Positions 5,936-28,486 of a stretch of 32,939 nucleotides of DNA are shown here, piece after piece. The stretch's first letter is position 1. Each line of letters opens with the position of its first letter. A program made the position numbers and the translations under genes. Below the pieces are notes generated by a model. That model was not told where the DNA came from. It worked only from the letters and a program-made list of their open reading frames with translations, and searched no databases. Source of the stretch: a virus. The DNA is taken from positions 1 to 32,939 of IMG/VR virus record IMGVR_UViG_3300008261_000083; one strand, 5' to 3'.

Positions 5936-7438
5936 ATGGCATCAATCCCAATCGTTTCAGGCATTTACTCTGACAATGGGCCGGATGTGCGCGTAGCGTA
6001 TCCGGTCAATATGATGCCTGTGCCAAAGCAATCAGGCGTCAGTGACTCATATTTGCGCCCGGCTGATGGGATTGTGTCATGTGGGCGCACAACCGCAAAC
6101 GGCGCAGATCGAGGCGGCATCAACTGGCGCGGCACCTGCTACCGTGTCATCGGCTCAAAGCTGGTTTCCGTTTCATCCACAGATGAGATAACCGTCTTGG
6201 GAGATGTTGGCTTTGGCGGTTACGTGACAATGGATTACAGCTTCGACCGCCTGGCCATTGCGTCTGGTGGTGGCCTGTACTACTTCAAGGGCGGGGCGAT
6301 CACAAAAGTGAGCGATGTGGACTTGGGCCACGTTGCGGATGTGTGCTGGGTTGATGGTTATTTCATGACCACAGACGGCACCAGCCTGGTAGTGACTGAG
6401 CTCAACGACCCGTTATCGGTCAACCCCCTGAAATATGGCAGCAGCGAAGCCGACCCTGACCCAATCGTCGCAATCATCAAGCTGCGAAACGAAGTCTATG
6501 CGCTGAACAGACACACTATCGAGGTATTCGATAACGTAGGCGGAGACTTGTTCCCGTTCCAGCGCATTGAGGGGGCACAGGTGCAAAAGGGATGCGTTGG
6601 CACGCACGCCTGCTGCAACTTTGACGAAACCATCGCATTTTTGGGCAGCGGGCGCAATGAATCACCAAGCATCTACTTCGCCTCAAATGCCAATGCTCAA
6701 TCCATTGCGACTCAAGAAATCGCGCTGACGCTGCAAGAATACAGCGAAGAAGAATTGTCAGCAGTGAAACTTGAAGCCCGCATTGATGTGGGCCATAAGC
6801 TTCTCTATGTGCATCTGCCGGACAAAACCCTAGTTTATGACCATGCTGCAAGCGAACTCATGCAGCGGCGCGTGTGGTTTACGCTAATCGGTGGCGTTGC
6901 AGAATCTGGCATCTATCCGGCACGAAACCTGGTTTGGTGCAATGACAAATGGATGGTGGGAAGTGCTGAAACCTATTCAGACTTCGACTTCATCACCGCT
7001 GAAACTGGCGACACTTTGGAGACGGAAGATAGTCTGTTTGTGCTGGCCACGGAAGTGCAAACCTATTCCAACATCGGATGCCTTGACCGTCAAACATCGT
7101 CGCATTGGGGCGAAAAGTGCCGCTGGGAATTCTCAACGCCTATCGTTTACAACGAAGCGCGAGGCGCATTGTTCCAGGAGCTTGAGCTTGCATCTTTGAC
7201 CGGGCGTATTGCACTTGGCTCAAATCCGCAAATCAGCACCAGCTACAGCTTGGACGGAGTGACTTGGAGCCAAGACCGATACATAAGCGCAGGCAAGCAA
7301 GGCGAAAGGCTCAAGCGCCTGGTGTGGTGGCAGCAAGGCATGATGCGCGACAAACGCATTCAGCGGTTCCGTGGGGACTCTGATGCACACATCTCCGTCA
7401 TGCGCCTAGAAGCGAAGCTAGAGCCTTTGGCGGTGTGA
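5936..7438 (+). CDS. 10: P22 gp10-like tail accessory factor / packaged DNA stabilization protein
   Basis: The 500 residues match P22 gp10 (about 472 aa), the second factor added to the tail machine below gp4. Corresponding stretches are visible. 'YPVNMMPVPKQSGVSDSYLRPADGI' parallels gp10 'LPVNMLATPKEILNSSGYLRSFPGI'. 'EVYALNRHTIEVFDNVG' parallels 'IVCFGSSTIEYFSLTG', and 'VQKGCVGTHACCNFDETIAFLG' parallels 'VQKGIAGTYC..DSYAFIS'. 'KLLYVHLPDKTLVYDHAAS' parallels 'ELLIIHLPRHVLVYDASSS'. Such proteins form a hexameric hub that holds tailspikes and needle. It follows the accessory tail block with an 11-bp gap and is followed by the needle-like gene after one base, as in P22 order. Confidence 0.88.
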   Translation: MASIPIVSGIYSDNGPDVRVAYPVNMMPVPKQSGVSDSYLRPADGIVSCGRTTANGADRGGINWRGTCYRVIGSKLVSVSSTDEITVLGDVGFGGYVTMDYSFDRLAIASGGGLYYFKGGAITKVSDVDLGHVADVCWVDGYFMTTDGTSLVVTELNDPLSVNPLKYGSSEADPDPIVAIIKLRNEVYALNRHTIEVFDNVGGDLFPFQRIEGAQVQKGCVGTHACCNFDETIAFLGSGRNESPSIYFASNANAQSIATQEIALTLQEYSEEELSAVKLEARIDVGHKLLYVHLPDKTLVYDHAASELMQRRVWFTLIGGVAESGIYPARNLVWCNDKWMVGSAETYSDFDFITAETGDTLETEDSLFVLATEVQTYSNIGCLDRQTSSHWGEKCRWEFSTPIVYNEARGALFQELELASLTGRIALGSNPQISTSYSLDGVTWSQDRYISAGKQGERLKRLVWWQQGMMRDKRIQRFRGDSDAHISVMRLEAKLEPLAV

Positions 7439-15734: not shown

Positions 15735-16120
15735 CCAAAGCCTTCTCATTCGGTGAACGCTCTCGCCAGCGGTTGCAAGGCGTGCATCCTGACCTGGTGC
15801 GCGTAGTGCATAAGGCTCTGGCGCTGTCACAAATTGACTTTGCAGTCATCGAGGGATTGCGAACCAAGGCTAGGCAGGCTGAATTGTTAGCCGCAGGTGC
15901 CAGCCGCACCATGAACAGCCGACATATTACCGGGCACGCCGTAGATGTAGCCCCCAGCATCGCTGGGGAAATCCGCTGGGACTGGCCACTGTTTGATGAG
16001 CTGGCAAAGGCATTCAAGCTGGCGGCGAAAGAGGAAAACGTCCCGATTGTCTGGGGCGGTGATTGGGTTTCGTTCAAAGATGGCCCACATTTTGAGCTTG
16101 ACCGGAGAAAGTACCCATGA
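15731..16120 (+). CDS. Endolysin: M15-type (VanY/L-alanyl-D-glutamate peptidase-like) peptidase
   Basis: The 129 residues show the M15 metallopeptidase pattern. SRHITGHAVDVAP (residues 63-75) supplies zinc ligands H65 and D72. DGPHFEL (117-123) supplies the acidic catalytic-region residue D117 and zinc ligand H120. RTKARQAELLAAGAS (44-58) is the usual segment before the motif. Such enzymes cut peptide bonds in peptidoglycan cross-links. There is no signal peptide, so release would depend on a holin. It is coupled by ATGA to the gene before and by ATGA to the holin gene after. Size is normal for single-domain phage endolysins of Gram-negative hosts. Confidence 0.9.
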   Translation: MTKAFSFGERSRQRLQGVHPDLVRVVHKALALSQIDFAVIEGLRTKARQAELLAAGASRTMNSRHITGHAVDVAPSIAGEIRWDWPLFDELAKAFKLAAKEENVPIVWGGDWVSFKDGPHFELDRRKYP

Positions 16121-16638
16121 GCGAAAAGGAAAGCATCTGGCGGCGAATCCTGCGGGCCACGGCTCCGGCAATCGGCACTGCAATAGGCGGCCCGCTTGGC
16201 GGCGCTGCGGCTGCGGTGGTGTCTGAAAAGCTACTTGGCAGGCCAGACGGCACAGAGACAGAGATCGCTCAGGCAATCGGCATTGGTAGCCCTGAAGTGC
16301 TGGCAAAGCTCAAAGAAGCTGAACTCGCATTTACCACGCGCATGCGTGAGCTGGATATTGATGTGGAGAAAATCCACCAGGCCGACCGAGCCGCAGCGCG
16401 TGAGCGTGAGGCAAAGACCGGCGACACCTTCACGCCTCGGGCGCTTGCACTATTCGTAACAAGCGGCTTTTTCGGCGTGCTGGGCTTTCTTTTGATTGAG
16501 GGAAAGCCACAGAACGGCGGCGATGCTTTGCTGGTCATGCTTGGCGCTTTGGGCGGCGCCTGGGCCAGCATCATCAGCTACTACTTCGGCTCAAGCGCAG
16601 GCAGTGCCGACAAAACCGCGCTGCTATCAAAGCGCTAG
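16117..16638 (+). CDS. Holin, GTA-type three-transmembrane family
   Basis: The 173 residues include a first Ala/Gly-rich hydrophobic segment (about 14-36, APAIGTAIGGPLGGAAAAVV). A long charged middle follows (LKEAELAFTTRMRELDIDVE). Two C-terminal TM helices are seen, about 110-128 (LALFVTSGFFGVLGFLLI) and 139-157 (LLVMLGALGGAWASIISYYF). The tail YYFGSSAGSADKTALLSK is a hallmark of the 3TM holin family described in gene-transfer agents and many phages. It would form the inner-membrane lesion that frees the endolysin encoded just upstream. The last base quartet CTAG (16635-16638) also holds the stop codon of the convergent gene. Confidence 0.82.
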   Translation: MSEKESIWRRILRATAPAIGTAIGGPLGGAAAAVVSEKLLGRPDGTETEIAQAIGIGSPEVLAKLKEAELAFTTRMRELDIDVEKIHQADRAAAREREAKTGDTFTPRALALFVTSGFFGVLGFLLIEGKPQNGGDALLVMLGALGGAWASIISYYFGSSAGSADKTALLSKR

Positions 16639-16823
16639 ATGAAGTACATCAGCGAATAGCCGACAAGGCAAACCGCGCAAGCAACGCCAACAATCCAAGT
16701 AGGCACCATCGGCTCATCAAGATCGTCTGCACCAATGTCGGTGCAGCATTCAGCGGGCCTATTCGGGCAATTGCTGGCCCGGTGGCCGCTTTGCCCGCAG
16801 TATGTGCAGATCTTCTGTTCCAT
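16635..16823 (-). CDS. Small CCHC zinc-knuckle protein with C-terminal transmembrane helix
   Basis: In this 62-residue protein, residues 6-20 read CTYCGQSGHRASNCP, a canonical zinc knuckle (C-x2-C-x4-H-x4-C), a fold best known for binding single-stranded nucleic acid. After an acidic linker (DIGADDLDEPM), residues about 42-61 (TWIVGVACAVCLVGYSLMYF) form a membrane helix. AGGAG lies eight bases before the ATG. It is the last gene of the leftward operon, separated from the cassette block by about 155 bp. Its TAG overlaps the holin TAG on the other strand through the palindrome CTAG. A membrane-tethered nucleic-acid-binding role is inference. Confidence 0.75.
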   Translation of the reverse strand: MEQKICTYCGQSGHRASNCPNRPAECCTDIGADDLDEPMVPTWIVGVACAVCLVGYSLMYFI

Positions 16824-16869: not shown

Positions 16870-16940
16870 TATTGTGTGGGAGAGACATCACACACTCACC
16901 GGGCTCCCGGCCTGTTTCTAATCCATGTTACCTAGAGCAT

Positions 16941-16984
16941 TAGCGCATTAGGCGTCGTTCAACGCCTGCTAATGGGCGTTAGGC
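16941..16984 (-). repeat. Terminal attC-like site with degenerate R' box
   Basis: On the minus strand GCCTAAC (16984-16978) fits the R'' consensus RYYYAAC and contains the TAA stop of the upstream ORF. An imperfect hairpin follows: CATTAGGCGT (16946-16955) pairs with ACGCCT-GC-TAATG (16962-16974), with a 2-nt bulge like attC extrahelical bases. The expected GTTRRRY on the other side is not found (AGAGCAT instead). I read it as the last attC of the array with a lost or truncated R' box. Confidence 0.5.
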
Positions 16985-17197
16985 CTGTCCTGCTTCATGC
17001 CGCGCGTTCAGTGCCTTGCACACCAATTCGGCATCTGCTTCTTCAAAGCACTCGCACACAGCTTTATAGTGAAACTGTCCGTCGCTTCCTTGGTAGTGCT
17101 TGTCGCCAATGATGTCCGGCTTCGTGGTGTCCACCACCGTCGCCTCGAAGCAGCAGTGCCCAGACTGTGAGCCCTTGTAAATCGCGTAGCGTGCCAT
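16979..17197 (-). CDS. Cassette-encoded small protein, function unknown
   Basis: ATG 17197 is chosen because GAGGAAG sits directly upstream; an in-frame start at 17251 has none and would lie inside the preceding attC. The 72-residue product (MARYAIYKGSQSGHCCFEAT, then VVDTTKPDIIGDKHY) has four cysteines, including CC at 15-16 and a later C-x-C (VCECF). The C-terminus is helical (EADAELVCKALNARHEAGQA). Its TAA lies inside the R'' box of the following site, as in many integron cassettes. No known domain is seen, which is usual for cassette ORFs. Confidence 0.7.
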   Translation of the reverse strand: MARYAIYKGSQSGHCCFEATVVDTTKPDIIGDKHYQGSDGQFHYKAVCECFEEADAELVCKALNARHEAGQA

Positions 17198-17221
17198 TTC
17201 TTCCTCGCTTCGGAGCCACAG

Positions 17222-17323
17222 GCCTAACCCGTCGCTCAAGTTGAGAGCCAACGGCGTCCACCGCCGTCGCGCTCCGGTTACTGTTTGGGCGCCGTTGTCT
17301 CCAACTTAGCTCCCGCGTTATGC
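17222..17323 (-). repeat. attC site (102 bp) following the exonuclease cassette
   Basis: Read on the minus strand: R'' GCATAAC (17323-17317; one deviation from RYYYAAC), spacer GCGGG, then AGCTAAGTTG. After the variable middle come CAACTTGAGC, spacer GACGG and R' GTTAGGC (17228-17222). AGCTAAGTTG and CAACTTGAGC pair except for one unpaired base, the hallmark of attC folding. The stop codon of the exonuclease ORF is inside the site. Its arms resemble those of the site at 17858-17955. Confidence 0.78.
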
Positions 17324-17829
17324 GCCTTGAGGCACGCCACCAGTTGCCGCGCCGACTGTCGGGCGTCCATCAGCGGGTGATGCGCCGGTAGTTCGTCGGG
17401 CATGCGCTCGGTCAGTTCCAGCGCGTTGCCGCCCAGCGCCAGGATCACGCTCGCCAAGTCGTGCAGCGGGTACGGGCCTTGCCACTCGCGTTCGGCGTGG
17501 TTCAGCTTCACGCACGCGCTCAGAAAGTTGGCTTCCACCGGCCAAGCGCAGTCGGCCACCAGCACCGCGCCTTGGTCAGCCCAATGGCGCCACTCGTGCC
17601 AGAAGGTGTTTCGCAAGTGCTGCGGCGTCGGGCTCGTCACTTCCAGCGGCGGCACGTTCTCATCCACCCACAAGCGGCTTTCGGCAGTGCCGGCGCACAG
17701 GTCGCGCGGGCAGGCCATGCAGCCTTCGCCCAGCCGCTCGCCGTCTCGGTTCACCACCACCCAGGCCACCGCGAAGCCGTCGCCGTGCAGCCCAATGCTC
17801 TCTACGTCGAACACCATGAATTTGTCCAT
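17278..17829 (-). CDS. Cassette-encoded DEDDh 3'-5' exonuclease-like protein
   Basis: In this 183-residue protein, Exo I is FDVES (D8, E10). Exo II is VLVADCAWPVEANFL, with its Asp near residue 96. Exo III is HHPLMDARQSA, which gives the H-x4-D spacing of the DEDDh (RNase T/DnaQ-like) superfamily. Metal-dependent 3'-5' hydrolysis of DNA or RNA is the expected activity; the substrate is unknown. ATG 17829 is preferred over 17835 because AGGA is correctly spaced only from the former. The last residues (NAGAKLETTAPKQ) are encoded by attC sequence, a typical sign of a cassette gene. It has high GC and no coupling to neighbours. Confidence 0.8.
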   Translation of the reverse strand: MDKFMVFDVESIGLHGDGFAVAWVVVNRDGERLGEGCMACPRDLCAGTAESRLWVDENVPPLEVTSPTPQHLRNTFWHEWRHWADQGAVLVADCAWPVEANFLSACVKLNHAEREWQGPYPLHDLASVILALGGNALELTERMPDELPAHHPLMDARQSARQLVACLKAHNAGAKLETTAPKQ

Positions 17830-17857
17830 CACCATCCTATCGTTTCTCGTTGCAGGC

Positions 17858-17955
17858 GCCTAACCCCTCGCTCAACCGGAGAGCCAACGGCATCTTTCGG
17901 TTGCTGTTCTGTACTTTGGTTCATCGTTGTCTCCCGGTTAGCTCAAACGTTAGGT
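17858..17955 (-). repeat. attC site (98 bp) following the Cys-rich cassette ORF
   Basis: On the minus strand: R'' ACCTAAC (17955-17949, fits RYYYAAC), then spacer and GAGCTAACCGG. After the variable middle come CCGGTTGAGC, spacer GAGGG and R' GTTAGGC (17864-17858, fits GTTRRRY). AGCTAACCGG pairs with CCGGTTGAGC except for one extra base. The TAA of the preceding ORF (17950-17952) is inside R''. Shared words with the 17222 site (TCGCTCAA, GAGAGCCAACGGC, TTGTCTCC on the + strand) show common origin. Confidence 0.82.
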
Positions 17956-18252
17956 TTCAATGGGCTTTCGCTCTGCCAGCCTCGCCATCAGACGCTCCTT
18001 GCGCTCTTGCGGCATCGGTTCGCCCATGAATGTCGGTGGCGATGGGTTCACCTTCTCCCATTCGGCCTTGTATTCATCCAGCAACTTTGCGGCTTCGTTC
18101 CAGTGGCCGTGCGAGTCAACTAACATGCACTCAAGCATGAAAGCAAGGCGGCTGGCGAATTGCTGGTCAATTTCAGCGCACCGTTTGCAGAGCATCCCGC
18201 ACTGTTTGCAGTCCGGGCCGCAGTTTGGATACATCGCGTCAATCGCGCTCAT
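17950..18252 (-). CDS. Cassette-encoded Cys-rich small protein, function unknown
   Basis: ATG 18252 has GGAG seven bases upstream; a TTG at 18264 in frame lies on that GGAG and is rejected. The 100 residues begin MSAIDAMYPNCGPDCKQCGM and LCKRCAEID. The cysteine series (C-x3-C-x2-C-x3-C-x2-C) could bind a metal. A helical body follows (HGHWNEAAKLLDEYKAEWEK) and a Pro-rich, then basic end (PMPQERKERLMARLAERKPI). I know no named family. It is a complete single-gene cassette between two attC sites. Confidence 0.72.
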   Translation of the reverse strand: MSAIDAMYPNCGPDCKQCGMLCKRCAEIDQQFASRLAFMLECMLVDSHGHWNEAAKLLDEYKAEWEKVNPSPPTFMGEPMPQERKERLMARLAERKPIET

Positions 18253-18271
18253 ATTCTTCTCCAAAATTGAA

Positions 18272-18333
18272 ACCTAACCCATCATTCCAGCGGACGGGCA
18301 AAAAGCGCCCGCCGCTGAATTCAAGCGTTAGGC
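18272..18333 (-). repeat. attC site (62 bp)
   Basis: On the minus strand: R'' GCCTAAC (18333-18327), spacer GCTTG, then AATTCAGCGGCGGGC, a small loop, GCCCGTCCGCTGGAAT, spacer GATGG and R' GTTAGGT (18278-18272). Both ends fit the consensus exactly. The arms pair over AGCGG/CCGCT, CGGGC/GCCCG and ATTC/GAAT, with single unpaired bases where attC sites carry extrahelical bases. The stop TGA of the preceding ORF (18321-18323) lies within it. This is the cleanest attC in the window. Confidence 0.88.
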
Positions 18334-18527
18334 ACCAGAAAAGCGTGGTGAGGCTGCCAGTTCGGCGGCAGGACACCGTTGCCGTCAATCCACCGCCCAT
18401 CGCGGTTCTTGGCAATCCAGCCGGTCGCGTAGCGCATCGGCTCGCGGGCGTTTGGGTAGGCCAGCGCGTCACGCTTGCTCACGAACAGGCGCAGCGTCAG
18501 GCCGCGATCTTCAAATCTGAATGCCAT
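18321..18527 (-). CDS. Cassette-encoded small protein, function unknown
   Basis: These 68 residues start at ATG 18527, with GAGGA seven bases upstream. The sequence (MAFRFEDRGLTLRLFVSKRD, then ALAYPNAREPMRYATGWIAK) ends NWQPHHAFLVPNA, where the last codons are part of the attC site. It is compact and rich in aromatic and basic residues, with no Cys and no membrane segment. With its attC it forms the 282-bp cassette 18278-18559, the smallest complete unit. No family is recognised. Confidence 0.7.
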   Translation of the reverse strand: MAFRFEDRGLTLRLFVSKRDALAYPNAREPMRYATGWIAKNRDGRWIDGNGVLPPNWQPHHAFLVPNA

Positions 18528-18553
18528 CGTTTCCTCTATGTTGTGGTTCTGGT

Positions 18554-18605
18554 GCCTAACATTTCGCTCAAGCCGACCTTCGGCGGCTTAGCTCGAACGT
18601 TAGCC
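18554..18605 (-). repeat. attC site (52 bp) at the operon-proximal edge of the array
   Basis: On the minus strand: R'' GGCTAAC (18605-18599; one deviation), spacer GTTCG, AGCTAAGCCG, loop, CGGCTTGAGC, spacer GAAAT and R' GTTAGGC (18560-18554). AAGCCG/CGGCTT and GCT/AGC pair with one base left out. It is slightly shorter than usual attC sites (commonly 55-140 bp). It lies 49 bp after the stop of a phage-type gene that is itself coupled to upstream operon genes. Confidence 0.78.
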
Positions 18606-22261: not shown

Positions 22262-22964
22262 GACTGTCCTTTACTATGTAGTCTTTAAAAACAATGCCTT
22301 TGCTTGCATCTCCAACCTTGCAAGATCGAACCCATACAAGCCTGCCATCTGGAAGCCTGCGCGAGTGGCCTCGACGGTCGTGCAACCTGGGGCTAGCGTG
22401 CGTTCCGCCCTTGTGCTCGCACTTTATTCCCTTGCCATCAATTAACAACGTGTGCCAGTCGTATGACGGTTGCTTGCCTGCTGCGATCTTGCGCTTGTTT
22501 GTGAAGGACGGGCGCACAAACGGCTGATATGCCTTTTTTGTGGACATCATCGAGTGATACCACTGGATGATCACACTCAGCACCATGCGCGCATCTTCCT
22601 CTGGCACTGGGTCATTTTCATCGGTCGGCCCGTACATGATCCGGTCGCCTTCGATGGTGTAGAGCATCGTTGGAATCTTGCGTGGCATGACGTTGGTGGG
22701 CCCTTTCCACATATCTATGACGATTCCATCATGCGGATCATTGCCAACCACCACGGCCATCACGTCGTAGGAAGCGTTCGACTTGCTCGGCCCACGTGAT
22801 GCCACAAAGCAGCGCCCAAAAGGCGGCCTGCACGTCATCAATGCATCTGCTTTGACTGTCATCTTGTCAGCCTTCAGGTCTGATATATCAAACCATTGCA
22901 GTTCTGTCGGGTCTATGCCTGCATTTGTGGCCCATGCGATGTTTTCTCTGATAAGCGGCGTCAT
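22248..22964 (-). CDS. Conserved phage early protein, function unknown
   Basis: ATG 22964 is chosen because AGGAG stands nine bases upstream and the ATG overlaps the helicase stop as ATGA; in-frame TTG/GTG codons further up are too close to that site. The 238 residues show a beta-rich middle (YDVMAVVVGNDPHDGIVIDM) and a C-terminal motif HDRRGHSRRLPDGRLVWVRS, CKVGDASKGIVFKDY. That C-terminal pattern recurs in many prophage proteins of this size beside helicase or replication genes. It is rich in His, Arg and Cys near the end, suggesting nucleic-acid or metal binding, but no enzyme motif is evident. Confidence 0.7.
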   Translation of the reverse strand: MTPLIRENIAWATNAGIDPTELQWFDISDLKADKMTVKADALMTCRPPFGRCFVASRGPSKSNASYDVMAVVVGNDPHDGIVIDMWKGPTNVMPRKIPTMLYTIEGDRIMYGPTDENDPVPEEDARMVLSVIIQWYHSMMSTKKAYQPFVRPSFTNKRKIAAGKQPSYDWHTLLIDGKGIKCEHKGGTHASPRLHDRRGHSRRLPDGRLVWVRSCKVGDASKGIVFKDYIVKDSHAPT

Positions 22965-24574
22965 ACACACCAACTCCTTTCTGTCACTCTGAAAAACTTC
23001 CCGTCCATCTTGTACTTGATGTGAACAGGAGGTTTTGACCCGTTCAACCGGACAATAAGCGCATCCCCAAGCCAGCCGTTCGGCTCGGTTTCTTTCATGA
23101 ATTCAGCCGGATTCAGGCCAGCACTGCGAGACATGGACATGAACGCCTGCATCGCTTTGTCACCCGCATAGCCCTCATGCGCCACCGGCAGATATTCCGT
23201 CACGCTTGGGCTTGCCAAGTCTCTCCCGTAGTACGTCACGGCCAGCATCTTCTTCGTGCTTGCGCGGCTGATATGCACGCGCCAAGACCATGCACGCACT
23301 GGCATATCAACCGGGTCAAGCCCCAGAATGTCCACATCGCGCAGCTTCAGGTCTTTCTTTTGCGGCTCAGGAAAAGCGGCTCCGCAGGATGGGCACTCTT
23401 TTGCGGATATTGCACATAGCTCGCCGCATGAGTCGCACACTTTGACAGGTGCTTCGCCATTTCCTTCACCTGAAACCTTGTTAGGTGGCTTGACTGCTGT
23501 GATCGGCCCGTGAGTCTCCACCACGCCAGCGAAGTCCAGCACTAGACAATGGTCGGTATGGCTTTTCACGCGCAGGCCACGCCCGGCCATCTGCACATAC
23601 AGGCTCGGGCTCATGGTAGGGCGCAGCATTGCGATTAGGTCAATGTCCGGGTAATCAAAGCCGGTCGTTAGCACGTTCGCATTTGTCAAGGCGCGGATTT
23701 CTCCGGCTTTGTACCGGCTCAAAATGGCCTCACGCTCCGCTTTCGGCGTTGCACCCGTCACGCACTCCGCAACAATGCCTTTGGCATTCAATTCAGATGC
23801 AATCGCCTCAGCGTGCGCCACACCGGCACAGAAAAACAGCCATGCTTTGCGCTCTCCTGCCAGCGCCATCACCTCAGACACCACCGCGGCGTTTTTGTCG
23901 GCTTTGTTCACGGCTGCTTGCAGTTCGGCCTCGATGTACTCGCCGCCTCGCTTGTGTACGCCTTCGACAGATAGCTTTGACGTAGTGATTTTGGAGCGCA
24001 AAATCGACAGATAGCCCTTTTTGATAAGCTCCTCGATGCTCACCGGCTCCACCAAGCCATCAAATAGCGCAGGCTTGTCAGTGATCATCCCGTGGCCCAA
24101 GCGGTAAGGCGTGGCCGTGAGCCCAATCACGCGCAGGCTTGGATTGATAGCCTTGAGTGCGCTTAGTAACTCACGGTAGCCGCCTTCGTCTTTGTGGCTC
24201 ACCATGTGGCACTCGTCAATTATCACCAGGTCAACATGGCCGATCTTGTCAGCCTTGCCGCGCAGCGATTGAATGCCAGCAAAAGTGATCGGCTCGTCAA
24301 GCTGCTTGCGCCCAATGCTGGCCGAATAGATGCCAAGCGGCGCACCGGGCCAGTGCAGGCGCATCTTCTCTGCATTCTGCTCGATCAGTTCCTTGACGTG
24401 CGTGAGCATGAGAATGCGAGTCTCTGGCCACGTTTGCACAGCCTCTTTGCACAGCGCCGCGACGATGTGGCTTTTCCCGGCTCCGGTCGGCAATACGAGG
24501 CAAGGATTGCCCTCGTTTTTCTCAAACCATGAATAAAGCTCGTCTATTGAACGGCGTTGGTATTCACGAAGCAT
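22961..24574 (-). CDS. RadD-like superfamily 2 DEAD/DEAH helicase
   Basis: ATG 24574 has GAGAGGA six bases upstream and yields MLREYQRRSIDELYSWFEKN, the usual RadD/YejH-type start. The 537 residues carry Q-like motif RxYQ (3-6), Walker A PTGAGKS (29-35), DECH (120-123), TATPYR (153-158), motif V TTGFDYPDID (303-312) and motif VI QMAGRGLR (328-335). A zinc finger CDSCG..CPSCG (380-398) follows, as in RadD. It likely unwinds or remodels DNA during phage replication and recombination. The C-terminal part (RAWSWRVHISRAS..) is typical of phage copies. It overlaps both neighbours (11 nt upstream, ATGA downstream). Confidence 0.86.
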   Translation of the reverse strand: MLREYQRRSIDELYSWFEKNEGNPCLVLPTGAGKSHIVAALCKEAVQTWPETRILMLTHVKELIEQNAEKMRLHWPGAPLGIYSASIGRKQLDEPITFAGIQSLRGKADKIGHVDLVIIDECHMVSHKDEGGYRELLSALKAINPSLRVIGLTATPYRLGHGMITDKPALFDGLVEPVSIEELIKKGYLSILRSKITTSKLSVEGVHKRGGEYIEAELQAAVNKADKNAAVVSEVMALAGERKAWLFFCAGVAHAEAIASELNAKGIVAECVTGATPKAEREAILSRYKAGEIRALTNANVLTTGFDYPDIDLIAMLRPTMSPSLYVQMAGRGLRVKSHTDHCLVLDFAGVVETHGPITAVKPPNKVSGEGNGEAPVKVCDSCGELCAISAKECPSCGAAFPEPQKKDLKLRDVDILGLDPVDMPVRAWSWRVHISRASTKKMLAVTYYGRDLASPSVTEYLPVAHEGYAGDKAMQAFMSMSRSAGLNPAEFMKETEPNGWLGDALIVRLNGSKPPVHIKYKMDGKFFRVTERSWCV

Positions 24575-24752
24575 GGCCGTTCCTCTCATTGTGACATCTA
24601 TACACTTCGGCCATCGTGTTCTCAAATTTCCGCAGCTCATCAATCGTGATGAGATCGCTCACGCCAGCATCCTCGGCCATCTTGCACAAGTCCGACAAGC
24701 TCGGCGGCTCTGCTTTCTTGGGCTTTGGCTTGCGCCAGAAAAACCAGTTCAT
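24564..24752 (-). CDS. Small phage protein, function unknown
   Basis: These 62 residues have a basic start (MNWFFWRKPKPKKAEPPSLS) and a helical acidic body (DLCKMAEDAGVSDLITIDEL, then RKFENTMAEVYRCHNERN). ATG 24752 has AGGA about seven bases upstream and overlaps the previous stop as ATGA. The gene overlaps the helicase start by 11 nt, so the pair is probably co-translated. No domain is recognised. Confidence 0.6.
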   Translation of the reverse strand: MNWFFWRKPKPKKAEPPSLSDLCKMAEDAGVSDLITIDELRKFENTMAEVYRCHNERNGHAS

Positions 24753-24961: not shown

Positions 24962-25983
24962 GCAACCACCCTAGTGCCTGGGAACTGCGCCCGAAAATCC
25001 TTGATCTCTTGCGATGTGCAGGCTGGCGCATTGGCAATAAGCTCACGGCTTGAATAGATGTTTGCATCCGGGTCGCCATTGGCCACCTCGGCACCATCCA
25101 CTACATAAACCGCAGTCCACTCATCCGGCCCGTCCTTGCGCTGCCACGGCACCAAGTCAGGGTGCAGCACATGCCCTGTGCAGCCTTCGCGCTGCGCTTC
25201 CAGCGGAATCACATCATCCCACCGGGCGCAGTGCCATGTGCTATCACTGAGCGGCGTAGAGTGGGCGCAGGTGCGGCAGTTGACCTCTTTCGTCAGCCTG
25301 GTCTGGTGGCAGAAAGTATGCGCTGGGCAGAACTTGCACTGATACCAGCTCGGGTCTGCGCTCACCGGCTCAGGCATGCGGTCGGATAGTGCAATGCGCT
25401 GACCACGCGCAACAATCTGCTGCGCTGCATCCACATCAAGCCTCACGCGCTCGGTGTATAGCCTGTCATCATCTTTGCAGACTGCAACATAAAGCGCCCG
25501 GTCAATGCCAGTGCCCAGCATGTAGGCCTGCATCTGCGCCCAATGCATCGGCTTGGCCTTCTCCACGCCATCGCGTGAAACCTCGTCGAAGCTCTTTTTG
25601 CTGTGCGTTTTGAACTCGGCAATGTGGCGCTTTTTCGGCGCTTCTGGCACGCCAGAATGAATGATGCCATCCATTGAACCAGACACGTGAGAGCCAAAAT
25701 CAACACGGCTCTGAGCGCCTTGCGTGTCTCGGATATCAATGCCAATGGCCCGAAGGTCGCTCACAATCTGAGCTTCTTCATTCTGCCCACGCCGAAACAC
25801 GCGCAGGATGCGGCCAGGGAACTTCTCAATCACGGCCCATCTGAAGTTAAGCCACAGCCAGCGGTCGCAGTGGTGGCCTAGCAGAGAGGCTCCCAAATGG
25901 CCCCGAGGGGCCTCCGCTTTCGCTTCGTGGGCAGCATCAATCAGGGCGGCGATTGAATGCTGGGGGTCGGGGAGTGTGCTCAC
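24958..25983 (-). CDS. Cas4/AddB-like PD-(D/E)XK nuclease with predicted Fe-S cluster
   Basis: In this 341-residue protein, catalytic positions are D105 in GSMDGI, E123 and K125 in AEFKTHSKKSF, and the QMQAYM helix at about 150-155. This is the RecB-type PD-(D/E)XK layout. C39 (LLGHHCDRWLW), together with a later C-x2-C-x5-C (CKFCPAHTFC), reproduces the cysteine spacing of Cas4 and AddB, which hold a 4Fe-4S cluster. A second C-x2-C (CRTCAHS) begins a C-terminal extension. It likely degrades or processes DNA ends in phage recombination. GTG 25983 overlaps the methyltransferase stop as GTGA. No CRISPR array is present. Confidence 0.83.
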   Translation of the reverse strand: MSTLPDPQHSIAALIDAAHEAKAEAPRGHLGASLLGHHCDRWLWLNFRWAVIEKFPGRILRVFRRGQNEEAQIVSDLRAIGIDIRDTQGAQSRVDFGSHVSGSMDGIIHSGVPEAPKKRHIAEFKTHSKKSFDEVSRDGVEKAKPMHWAQMQAYMLGTGIDRALYVAVCKDDDRLYTERVRLDVDAAQQIVARGQRIALSDRMPEPVSADPSWYQCKFCPAHTFCHQTRLTKEVNCRTCAHSTPLSDSTWHCARWDDVIPLEAQREGCTGHVLHPDLVPWQRKDGPDEWTAVYVVDGAEVANGDPDANIYSSRELIANAPACTSQEIKDFRAQFPGTRVVA

Positions 25984-28478
25984 TGCGTCACCTCATCTTC
26001 CATCATGTCAAACAGTGAAGGCATGGAAAACTCACGCTCCGCAGCCTGCAGGTAGTGCACTTGGTCAAGGAAATAAGCTGGATTCAGCTCTGAGCCTCCA
26101 CCCTTGCGCCCCTTGAGAATTGCGCGGTATGGCACCGTTCCAAGGCCGCAGAATGGATCATAGACAGTCTCTCCAGGCTGGCTATAGCGGTCAATCAAGC
26201 GATCAACAATGTCGAATTGAAGCGGGCAAACATGCTTTTCAACGGCTCGGCGGCTTTGGTCGCTGTTGAGGGTCAGCATGCGCGTCACATCGTGCCAAAC
26301 GTCCGGATGATGCGAGCCAGGCGCGAGGCTCATAAAGGTGGATGGTAGCGCTCCGCGTTGCTCCAACTCCTCGCCCAATCGAACGTGGAATTCATAGTCG
26401 TAAATATTCTCCAATGAATACTTGGTAAACATGCTGGCCAGCTTATCAGGGCCAAGGCCCGCGAGGTCTTCGGCTGTCAATTGACGGTTGCCACTGCTGC
26501 GCCAGAATGCGTGCGCGTCAACCTGCCAGTGTGCGCGGGTGTATTTGTCTTTCGACTTTTGCACCGGCACATCGGCATAGCCTTTGGTTCGGTCAGTCTG
26601 AGGCTTGCGAAAGAGAACGATGTATTCAGGTGAACCAACTCCCATCTTCGTACCATCTTTTGCATTCTCAGACCATCCGAGGCGGTAAGTCTGATTGTTC
26701 TCACGCACCACATCCGTCACAACTGTAATGAGGCCCATGTAATCGAACCCATGCTTGCGTCCATGCATGATGGCTTCGCAGTGAAATGGAGACACGGTAG
26801 GCGCACCGGCACCGGTTACGTTGCCAAACAGAATGCGGTCTTTGACATGGCAAGCATAGATGCGGCCCGGTCGCAGGATGCGCAACAGCTCTGGCGTGAG
26901 GTAGTCCATCTGGCCCCAGAAGTGGTCGTTGTCCTCAGTGTGGCCGAAGTCGTTATAGCTGGGGCTGTATTCGTAGTGATTAGCGAATGGGATGCTAGTC
27001 ACGATCAGGTCGATGCTGTTTTCCTCTCGCACCTTGGCCTCTTCAACGCAATCATTATTTGCCACCCGGAAGCGGTCGCCAGTTACCTCGATTCGCTTCA
27101 CGCCAATGGAACGGGTGAGTGTGTCTTGCATGGCCAATTGATTCAGGCCGAATTGCTTGATGATGTTTTGCATGTTTGATACCAATTCTTTGTGTTGTTG
27201 CCACTTCGCCAGCAGCACGCGCAAAACCTCGCGCTCTGCCTCGCTGTGAACCACATCAATGATCACCTTGCGAGTTTGCCCGAAGCGCTGCACGCGGTGG
27301 ATGGCTTGAATGAAGTCATTAAACTTGAAACCGATGCCAGCGAAGATTTCCCGGTGGCAATGCTTCTGGAAGTTGCAGCCTGACCCTGCAATGACAGGCT
27401 TGGTGGAAAGAATGCGGAACTCGCCATCACCAAAGCCTACGATGCGAGATTCGCGCTCGTCTAGGTCTTGCGTGCCCCATACGCTCACAGCTTCTGGCAG
27501 TGCCTTTTGAATTGCATGGCGCTCTGATTCCAAGTCATGCCAGATTACAAAATGATCGTCTGGCGCAGCGTCCACAATCTCTTTCACCTTGGCCACACGA
27601 TCAGGCAAGCTATCGCGCTTTTCACGGCTTGCGGCTGCGAGTCCTAGCGCTGGATCTTGGAACATCAAGCCTTGCCCGTCTTTCTCAGTGCCAGCCTTCT
27701 CGTAGTCGCTGGCCACCTCGTGGTAACGCACTTCGATTTCTGGCAAGTCATAGCCATCGTCGCTGTGGCCAAGGTCGCTTGGCTTTTGCGCAAAGATTGC
27801 CCAGCTCGAAACCCACAGCCAGAACTCTTGTTCTTTGTGCGGGTAGAGCGTAAGGTTTCCAGCCTTCTCGCTGTCGCGTTGAAAAAACCGGGTCAGAGCC
27901 TGGCCGGTATCCATTGCACCCAAAAAGCCAGCGTAGTGAATAAGCTCTTTGAATCGGTTGGGGCTTGGTGTAGCCGTATTCACCAGTTTATATTTCACGC
28001 CGGAGAACATGGGCAAGAACTCTTGGTAAGTCTTTGACCCGAATGAGCGCAGCACGCTTGCTTCGTCCAAGCTCACGGCGGCAAACAATGTAGGATCTAG
28101 CTTTCCATCGCGCACCGTTTCATAGTTCGTGATGTAGAGGCTATGCCCGTCCACAATCTCGGATGCGCTCTTGATGAATCGCAGTTCATAACCCAGCATC
28201 TTTGCATCGCGCATCAGCTCTTGGCGCACGCCAAGCGGCGCAATGATCAAGCCATTGCCACCGGCAAGCTCAATTGTCTTACCCATCCATTCAATCTGCA
28301 TGACAGACTTGCCAAGGCCGAAGCTCGCAAAGATTGCGCGGTTGCCACCTTGAATGGCCCATTGCACGATGTCCTTCTGGTGGGCCTTGAGAATTGGGTT
28401 CAGCTTGGCTTTCGGCACATCAAAGCCGCCGAAATGGGCCATCTTGACCTTAGCCTTGAGGAACTCTGAATAATCCAT
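25980..28478 (-). CDS. SNF2-like helicase fused to a DNA methyltransferase
   Basis: ATG 28478 has GAGGT seven bases upstream. The 832 residues comprise a helicase half and a methylase half. The helicase half has Walker A GLGKS (54-58), DEAS in place of DEAD/H (138-141), TATPSPNR (168-175) and motif VI HRVQRFGQ (394-401). The methylase half has motif IV TSIPF (494-498) and, far downstream, motif I DPFCGLGT (774-781), the order of circularly permuted amino-methyltransferases. N4-cytosine or N6-adenine methylation is expected; the target is unknown. The motif IV core is SIPF rather than the usual (D/N/S)PP(Y/F/W). No restriction partner is evident, so host-restriction evasion is an inference. 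Confidence 0.85.
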   Translation of the reverse strand: MDYSEFLKAKVKMAHFGGFDVPKAKLNPILKAHQKDIVQWAIQGGNRAIFASFGLGKSVMQIEWMGKTIELAGGNGLIIAPLGVRQELMRDAKMLGYELRFIKSASEIVDGHSLYITNYETVRDGKLDPTLFAAVSLDEASVLRSFGSKTYQEFLPMFSGVKYKLVNTATPSPNRFKELIHYAGFLGAMDTGQALTRFFQRDSEKAGNLTLYPHKEQEFWLWVSSWAIFAQKPSDLGHSDDGYDLPEIEVRYHEVASDYEKAGTEKDGQGLMFQDPALGLAAASREKRDSLPDRVAKVKEIVDAAPDDHFVIWHDLESERHAIQKALPEAVSVWGTQDLDERESRIVGFGDGEFRILSTKPVIAGSGCNFQKHCHREIFAGIGFKFNDFIQAIHRVQRFGQTRKVIIDVVHSEAEREVLRVLLAKWQQHKELVSNMQNIIKQFGLNQLAMQDTLTRSIGVKRIEVTGDRFRVANNDCVEEAKVREENSIDLIVTSIPFANHYEYSPSYNDFGHTEDNDHFWGQMDYLTPELLRILRPGRIYACHVKDRILFGNVTGAGAPTVSPFHCEAIMHGRKHGFDYMGLITVVTDVVRENNQTYRLGWSENAKDGTKMGVGSPEYIVLFRKPQTDRTKGYADVPVQKSKDKYTRAHWQVDAHAFWRSSGNRQLTAEDLAGLGPDKLASMFTKYSLENIYDYEFHVRLGEELEQRGALPSTFMSLAPGSHHPDVWHDVTRMLTLNSDQSRRAVEKHVCPLQFDIVDRLIDRYSQPGETVYDPFCGLGTVPYRAILKGRKGGGSELNPAYFLDQVHYLQAAEREFSMPSLFDMMEDEVTQ

Positions 28479-28486
28479 CAATCACC

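Follow-up and report, generated by a model that had tools for sequence, protein, structure and literature searches.

Bacterial integrons are known for the spread of resistance genes. With the phage system described here, the chromosomal (sedentary) integrons of Burkholderiales and the class 1 integrons share the attC structure and the G|TT cut, as well as an intI that faces away from the array and an attI beside intI; their cassette genes, however, end at attC, whereas those of the locus described here begin at it. Integrons with a reversed intI, e.g., those of Spirochaetota (PMC9668308), also put intI and the cassette genes on one strand, but there it is intI that is flipped, whereas here intI and attC are mutually canonical and the cassette genes are flipped. 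The closest described systems are the integrase-less attC arrays (CALINs) of phages TJE1, PH101 and P12002L (Qi et al. 2023, PMC9892861), where attCs of this kind were shown to recombine with IntI1. The carriage of cassettes by phages is thus not new, and the original prediction that phages can be cassette carriers, though correct, had by that account been published in 2023 (PMC9892861). Unlike the array described here, TJE1 has its genes and attCs in the normal orientation. PH101, like the array described here, gave two attC matches on the + strand with the covariance model and has minus-strand annotated genes between the two; this cultured virulent phage with IntI1-active attCs (L275 26529-27987) thus appears to be reversed too. 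The accessible part of PMC9892861 reports no reversed layout for PH101, no reversed-cassette rule and no phage-specific IntI group, and a search of the open PubMed Central literature (preprints excluded) turned up no paper describing either reversed cassettes or a phage group of IntI. P12002L and Virus Rctr41k gave no attC match with the covariance model used.

The window analysed here is a whole viral record of 32,939 bases. Structural genes on the + strand (head-tail adaptor, Phage_stabilise and tail spike) and early genes on the minus strand (helicases, MazG-like, SSB and Sak4) form two convergent operons, and the cassette array lies where they meet, at the 3′ end of the early operon, with phage structural and replication genes flanking it on both sides. 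Judged from its sequence matches to a head-tail adaptor, a tail spike, SSB and Sak4, the window is phage DNA. No IntI was found in the window by tblastn with a phage IntI, although the record may be incomplete; with at least two tandem attCs and no IntI, the locus bears out the predicted CALIN in a phage early operon. More specifically, it is most likely an integrase-less array of four cassettes of a reversed type found in phages, and part of the early operon. A blastn search against annotated phages returned only short matches, in or beside the neighbours of the array. Two near relatives, L002 and L004, are 77-91% identical to the window over most aligned parts and have no attC match with the covariance model, so the repeats are not elements fixed in all related phages.

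The four attC-type sites (Table 1) were recognized with a geometry scanner, which found in each the R″ and R′ boxes, 5-nt spacer and imperfect L arms with unpaired bases that had been proposed, in the geometry of the aadA1 attC down to the extra unpaired base in L″. The sites fold as hairpins and are located between genes. In 547 kb of viral loci the scanner found 154 such sites, vs. none in shuffled copies. A covariance model trained only on 23 bacterial attCs served as a separate test and gave significant matches at all four sites (E 4e-13 to 0.004; bounds 17226-17319, 17860-17953, 18272-18333 and 18554-18605, all on the + strand); two of these score on par with functional bacterial attCs, while the leftmost has a modest score of 21 bits. 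A search of Rfam at both thresholds gave no match. These are genuine integron attC sites, far beyond chance. Because all model matches are on the + strand and minus-strand readings reach at best 11.3 and 9.7 bits, the polarity of the attCs is +, and not minus as first thought; a reading of the sites as minus-strand attCs is ruled out by these scores and by the boundaries seen in L039 (below).

Table 1. Features of the cassette array in the window
Feature	Coordinates	Strand	Remarks
Whole cassette array	16978..18605	+ (attC polarity)	all genes on minus strand
Lone R′ box GTTAGGC, left end of array	16978..16984	+	attI-like or degenerate site
Cassette 1 (339 nt)	16979..17317	+	GTTAGGCCTG / CAGGCCTAAC complementary ends
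Cassette 1 gene	16979..17197	-	likely ATG at 17197, 72 aa; start by inspection; stop TAA supplied by R′ box
attC of cassette 1	17222..17323	+	21.1 bits, E 0.0037
Cassette 2 (632 nt)	17318..17949	+	common to viral contig L039 from first base
Cassette 2 gene	17278..17835	-	185 aa, putative DEDD-type 3′-5′ exonuclease
attC of cassette 2	17858..17955	+	36.3 bits, E 4.9e-7
Cassette 3 (378 nt)	17950..18327	+	perfect 13-nt complementarity of ends
Cassette 3 gene	17950..18252	-	small cysteine-rich protein; start by inspection; stop TAA supplied by R′ box
attC of cassette 3	18272..18333	+	60.1 bits, E 4.4e-13
Cassette 4 (272 nt)	18328..18599	+	perfect 14-nt complementarity of ends
Cassette 4 gene	18321..18527	-	68 aa; stop within attC of cassette 3
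attC of cassette 4	18554..18605	+	56.3 bits, E 3.9e-12

Cassette lengths of 282, 414 and 636 bp had been predicted, but these are R″-to-R″ distances, and the lengths in Table 1 follow when counting starts from the G|TT cut; the three predicted cassettes exist, together with a fourth whose left bound is the lone R′ box. About 20 nt preceding this box recur in the relative L002, followed by different downstream sequence. No covariance-model match and no complete attC or attI was recognisable at this left end, and no common attI could be identified in the window. The ends of the cassettes are mutually complementary over about 10-14 nt (e.g., GTTAGGCACCAGAA / TTCTGGTGCCTAAC), as expected of a circularised cassette.

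A codon-based gene caller placed all genes of the array on the minus strand with scores of 13-36, in agreement with the four small same-strand ORFs and the stop codons inside the sites that had been described from the sequence; + strand ORFs within the array were rejected for their poor coding scores (at most about 2). These calls come from a simple codon model, and Pfam matches support the called strand for the genes that they cover. Since the attCs are on the + strand, each gene thus runs opposite to its own attC, and the canonical order, with attC at the 3′ end of a gene in the same orientation, is absent from all four cassettes. The protein of cassette 1 matches PHROG 19733, a phage protein family of unknown function (E 7e-20, with a longer TTG-start ORF as query). 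The product of cassette 2 is a probable DEDD-type 3′-5′ exonuclease, by motif inference and not by a family match: DVES and HPLMDAR motifs are conserved across six homologues, and a search of Pfam gave no match at E 0.1. Cassettes 3 and 4 encode two small proteins without an assigned function.

Cassette 2 and relatives of the window both show a unit whose end coincides with the G|TT cut of R′. A copy of the 632-nt exonuclease cassette is present in viral contig L039 (85.9 kb), 88.6% identical to it from the first base on, with the rise to strong identity falling at the R′ box GTTATGC. On its left, the shared cassette adjoins an attC whose length differs between L039 and the window (70 vs. 102 nt), and the attC that the two have in common is the one at the 5′ end of the cassette 2 gene. 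The cut is thereby located at the R′ box of the + strand, and the 5′ attC is seen to belong to the cassette 2 gene, with which it travels. Similarly, L129 and L130, two contigs from different metagenomes that are 98.6-99.9% identical in most shared stretches (89.8% in one), differ in three events, each the gain or loss of one cassette, whose breakpoints are at, or no more than 2 nt from, the attC cut. For event E1 the junction was read directly from the sequences as GCGCCCTAAC joined to GCTTAGG; in another event 213 of 215 bases match across an interval that includes the exact cut, and in the remaining one the breakpoint is within 2 nt of the cut. Such comparisons show that cassettes have been exchanged in the past. 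Homologues of cassette 2 were found in viral contigs and in one bacterial contig without attC matches. The latter, from Pseudorhodoferax aquiterrae (L044 4001-4498), encodes an exonuclease homologue that is 81% identical and has no attC matches nearby, and the genome has an IntI on another contig.

Cassette orientation was surveyed in two viral sets, one of 56 loci with a common attC half-site plus L039 and L040, and the other of 80 loci encoding relatives of one phage IntI, and in a bacterial control of 41 loci, namely a class 1 plasmid and, from Burkholderiales, regions selected for an IntI or for that half-site. When attCs were called by the covariance model and identical stretches entered the count a single time, 158 viral cassettes were reversed and 5 had genes and attCs in the same orientation (23 without a gene call), vs. 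7 reversed and 72 same in the bacterial control (26 without a gene call); the Fisher p of 9e-47 is descriptive only, since cassettes within one array are not independent. Per record, the viral contigs gave 56 reversed, 2 same and 5 undecided, and the bacterial ones 2 reversed, 26 same and 2 undecided. An earlier count with the scanner alone agrees with the model-based one, and in ten more bacterial regions, those surrounding the closest IntIs, 14 cassettes were same and 3 reversed. The reversed layout is thus systematic in viral contigs as sampled here, i.e., by one attC pattern and one IntI among metagenome contigs, with IMG/VR contigs being predictions. Reversed calls exist in bacteria too (7/79, and 3/17 in the second set), in a sample that is mostly Burkholderiales and with an attC model trained on some of the same loci. 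Two bacterial contigs, L234 and L237, have most of their cassette genes called reversed, and these could be miscalls or phage-derived. Top-strand recombination was considered as a cause of the inversion and set aside by reasoning, as it would flip gene and attC together.

Start and stop signals were found in the reversed cassettes as well. A Shine-Dalgarno-like motif with a start codon occurs within 60 nt after R″ in 122 of the 158; the same motif is present in 15% of random stretches and at the 5′ ends of 21 of 72 bacterial cassettes. In 56 of the 158, TTA of the R′ box serves as the stop codon. A comparison of 102 distinct cassette proteins with Pfam gave matches to 19 families, some of them exonucleases, several DNA methyltransferases, Mom and a Tad2-like domain; most of the proteins match no Pfam family.

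A complete integron (intI, attI and array), absent from the window, occurs in viral relatives, L013 and L130 among them, and no IntI over the cut-off was found in relatives L002-L011. L013 has a 60% identical homologue of the window protein encoded at 16117-16638. Its IntI is complete (417 bits vs. a cut-off of 265), and intI there has a phage integrase on one side and, on the other, two reversed cassettes at the place corresponding to the window array. A true integron integrase is frequent among viral contigs with the reversed layout. IntI relatives are encoded by at least 160 stretches in viral contigs, and at the viral IntI loci with attCs, 137 of 143 attCs are upstream of intI on the opposite strand, a placement which means that intI and attCs are arranged canonically and that the reversal affects the genes alone. 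The typical viral order is early operon, reversed cassettes, attI-like junction, intI, phage integrase and tail genes, and the junction is conserved up to GTT, after which come differing first cassettes. In a sample of 200 genomes of the host phylum, the IntI closest to that of L013 is 56% identical. In a tree with 46 bacterial IntIs, made by a quick method with SH-aLRT support and no bootstrap, 51 of 65 viral IntIs form a viral-only group (SH-aLRT 98). It is reasonably likely that phages possess an integron lineage of their own, with its own IntI group, an attI by the prophage integrase and a separate pool of reversed cassettes that phages exchange and that carry genes for DNA modification and anti-defence, and that the window array came from it. 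L178 (9971-12833) has intI, attCs and cassette genes on one strand, an alternative co-directional route, and is the sole viral case of the reversed-intI kind that was seen.

For the window phage itself, the integrase behind the array, the array’s expression, any present activity and its benefit are matters that we infer. Each cassette is a unit that starts with G|TTRRRY, followed by the gene’s stop, the backwards gene, a ribosome-binding site and the attC, which is thus at the 5′ end of the gene rather than at its 3′ end. An integron integrase would gain and lose such units singly by acting on the folded attC strand and cutting at G|TT. In relatives this integrase is phage-encoded; for the window phage it could have been provided by a co-infecting or resident phage, by the host, or by an intI since lost. 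With genes running against the attC direction, an array beside intI is co-directional with intI and the early operon. Reversal would keep the cargo on that strand, so that the genes could be read from the phage’s own promoter as the tail of the early operon, without the integron Pc promoter. The array might then serve as an exchangeable shelf of accessory genes; among such genes in related arrays are those for DNA methyltransferases, for a Mom-like DNA modifier and for an anti-defence protein resembling Tad2. It is also conceivable that the strand of attC which recombines, being the non-template one, is made accessible by transcription.

Among other explanations, the one with the most to recommend it is that the array is old and now fixed, its attCs being relics that no longer recombine. 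The missing IntI, the one weak attC (21 bits) and the degenerate leftmost boundary would fit, but two attCs score like functional bacterial ones, near relatives lack the array and cassette 2 is shared with L039 (a sign of past exchange, not of present activity); on balance a relic array is possible but rather unlikely. The original prediction favoured capture from a host integron, i.e., an ordinary CALIN of normal cassettes. In the order searched, 143 of 399 genomes have an IntI over the cut-off, such hosts often have integrons, and bacterial attCs of very similar sequence exist. Canonical host cassettes, however, have the opposite arrangement of gene and attC, which argues against simple capture, as does the occurrence of cassette 2 homologues in viral contigs and in a bacterial contig without attC matches, and this origin seems improbable.

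Two further readings deserve hardly any credence. Terminators or other repeated hairpins would also be intergenic and hairpin-forming, but they would not be expected to give significant attC-model matches with a strong strand preference, complementary cassette ends and exchange at cassette boundaries, nor to occur in contigs of a type that has IntI. Chimeric assembly, or contamination by bacterial integron DNA, has to be considered since all of the evidence comes from metagenome contigs; yet phage structural and replication genes are found on both sides of the array, phage integrase and tail genes are also encoded on the IntI contigs, dozens of contigs assembled from different metagenomes show the layout, and the gene orientation is unlike that of bacterial integrons.

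In viral contigs, then, the same machinery is found with its cargo genes flipped to run with the phage operon, and this layout, together with the IntI of relatives, suggests that phages run their own swappable gene library. A phage-owned cassette pool, if true, would explain why small early genes are swapped rapidly. With attC attached at the opposite gene end, reversed cassettes cannot be mere loans from bacterial integrons and probably had a separate making, which renders the open question of cassette formation more testable.

The neighbourhood of the array has some features of its own. Just to its left, between the convergent operons, is an inverted repeat (16936-16975; CATTAGC...GCTAATG around AGGCGT...ACGCCT), the right half of which recurs in L002 at 6363-6390 and is followed there by different sequence; as a candidate fifth attC this hairpin was rejected, having no covariance-model match. 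A minus-strand ORF at 16635-16823 (62 aa) encodes a CCHC zinc knuckle (Pfam E 3.4e-6) and a hydrophobic C-terminus. Finally, the large ORFs at 22961-24643 and 25980-28481 both match helicase family PHROG 16, and the latter additionally matches DNA methyltransferase families.
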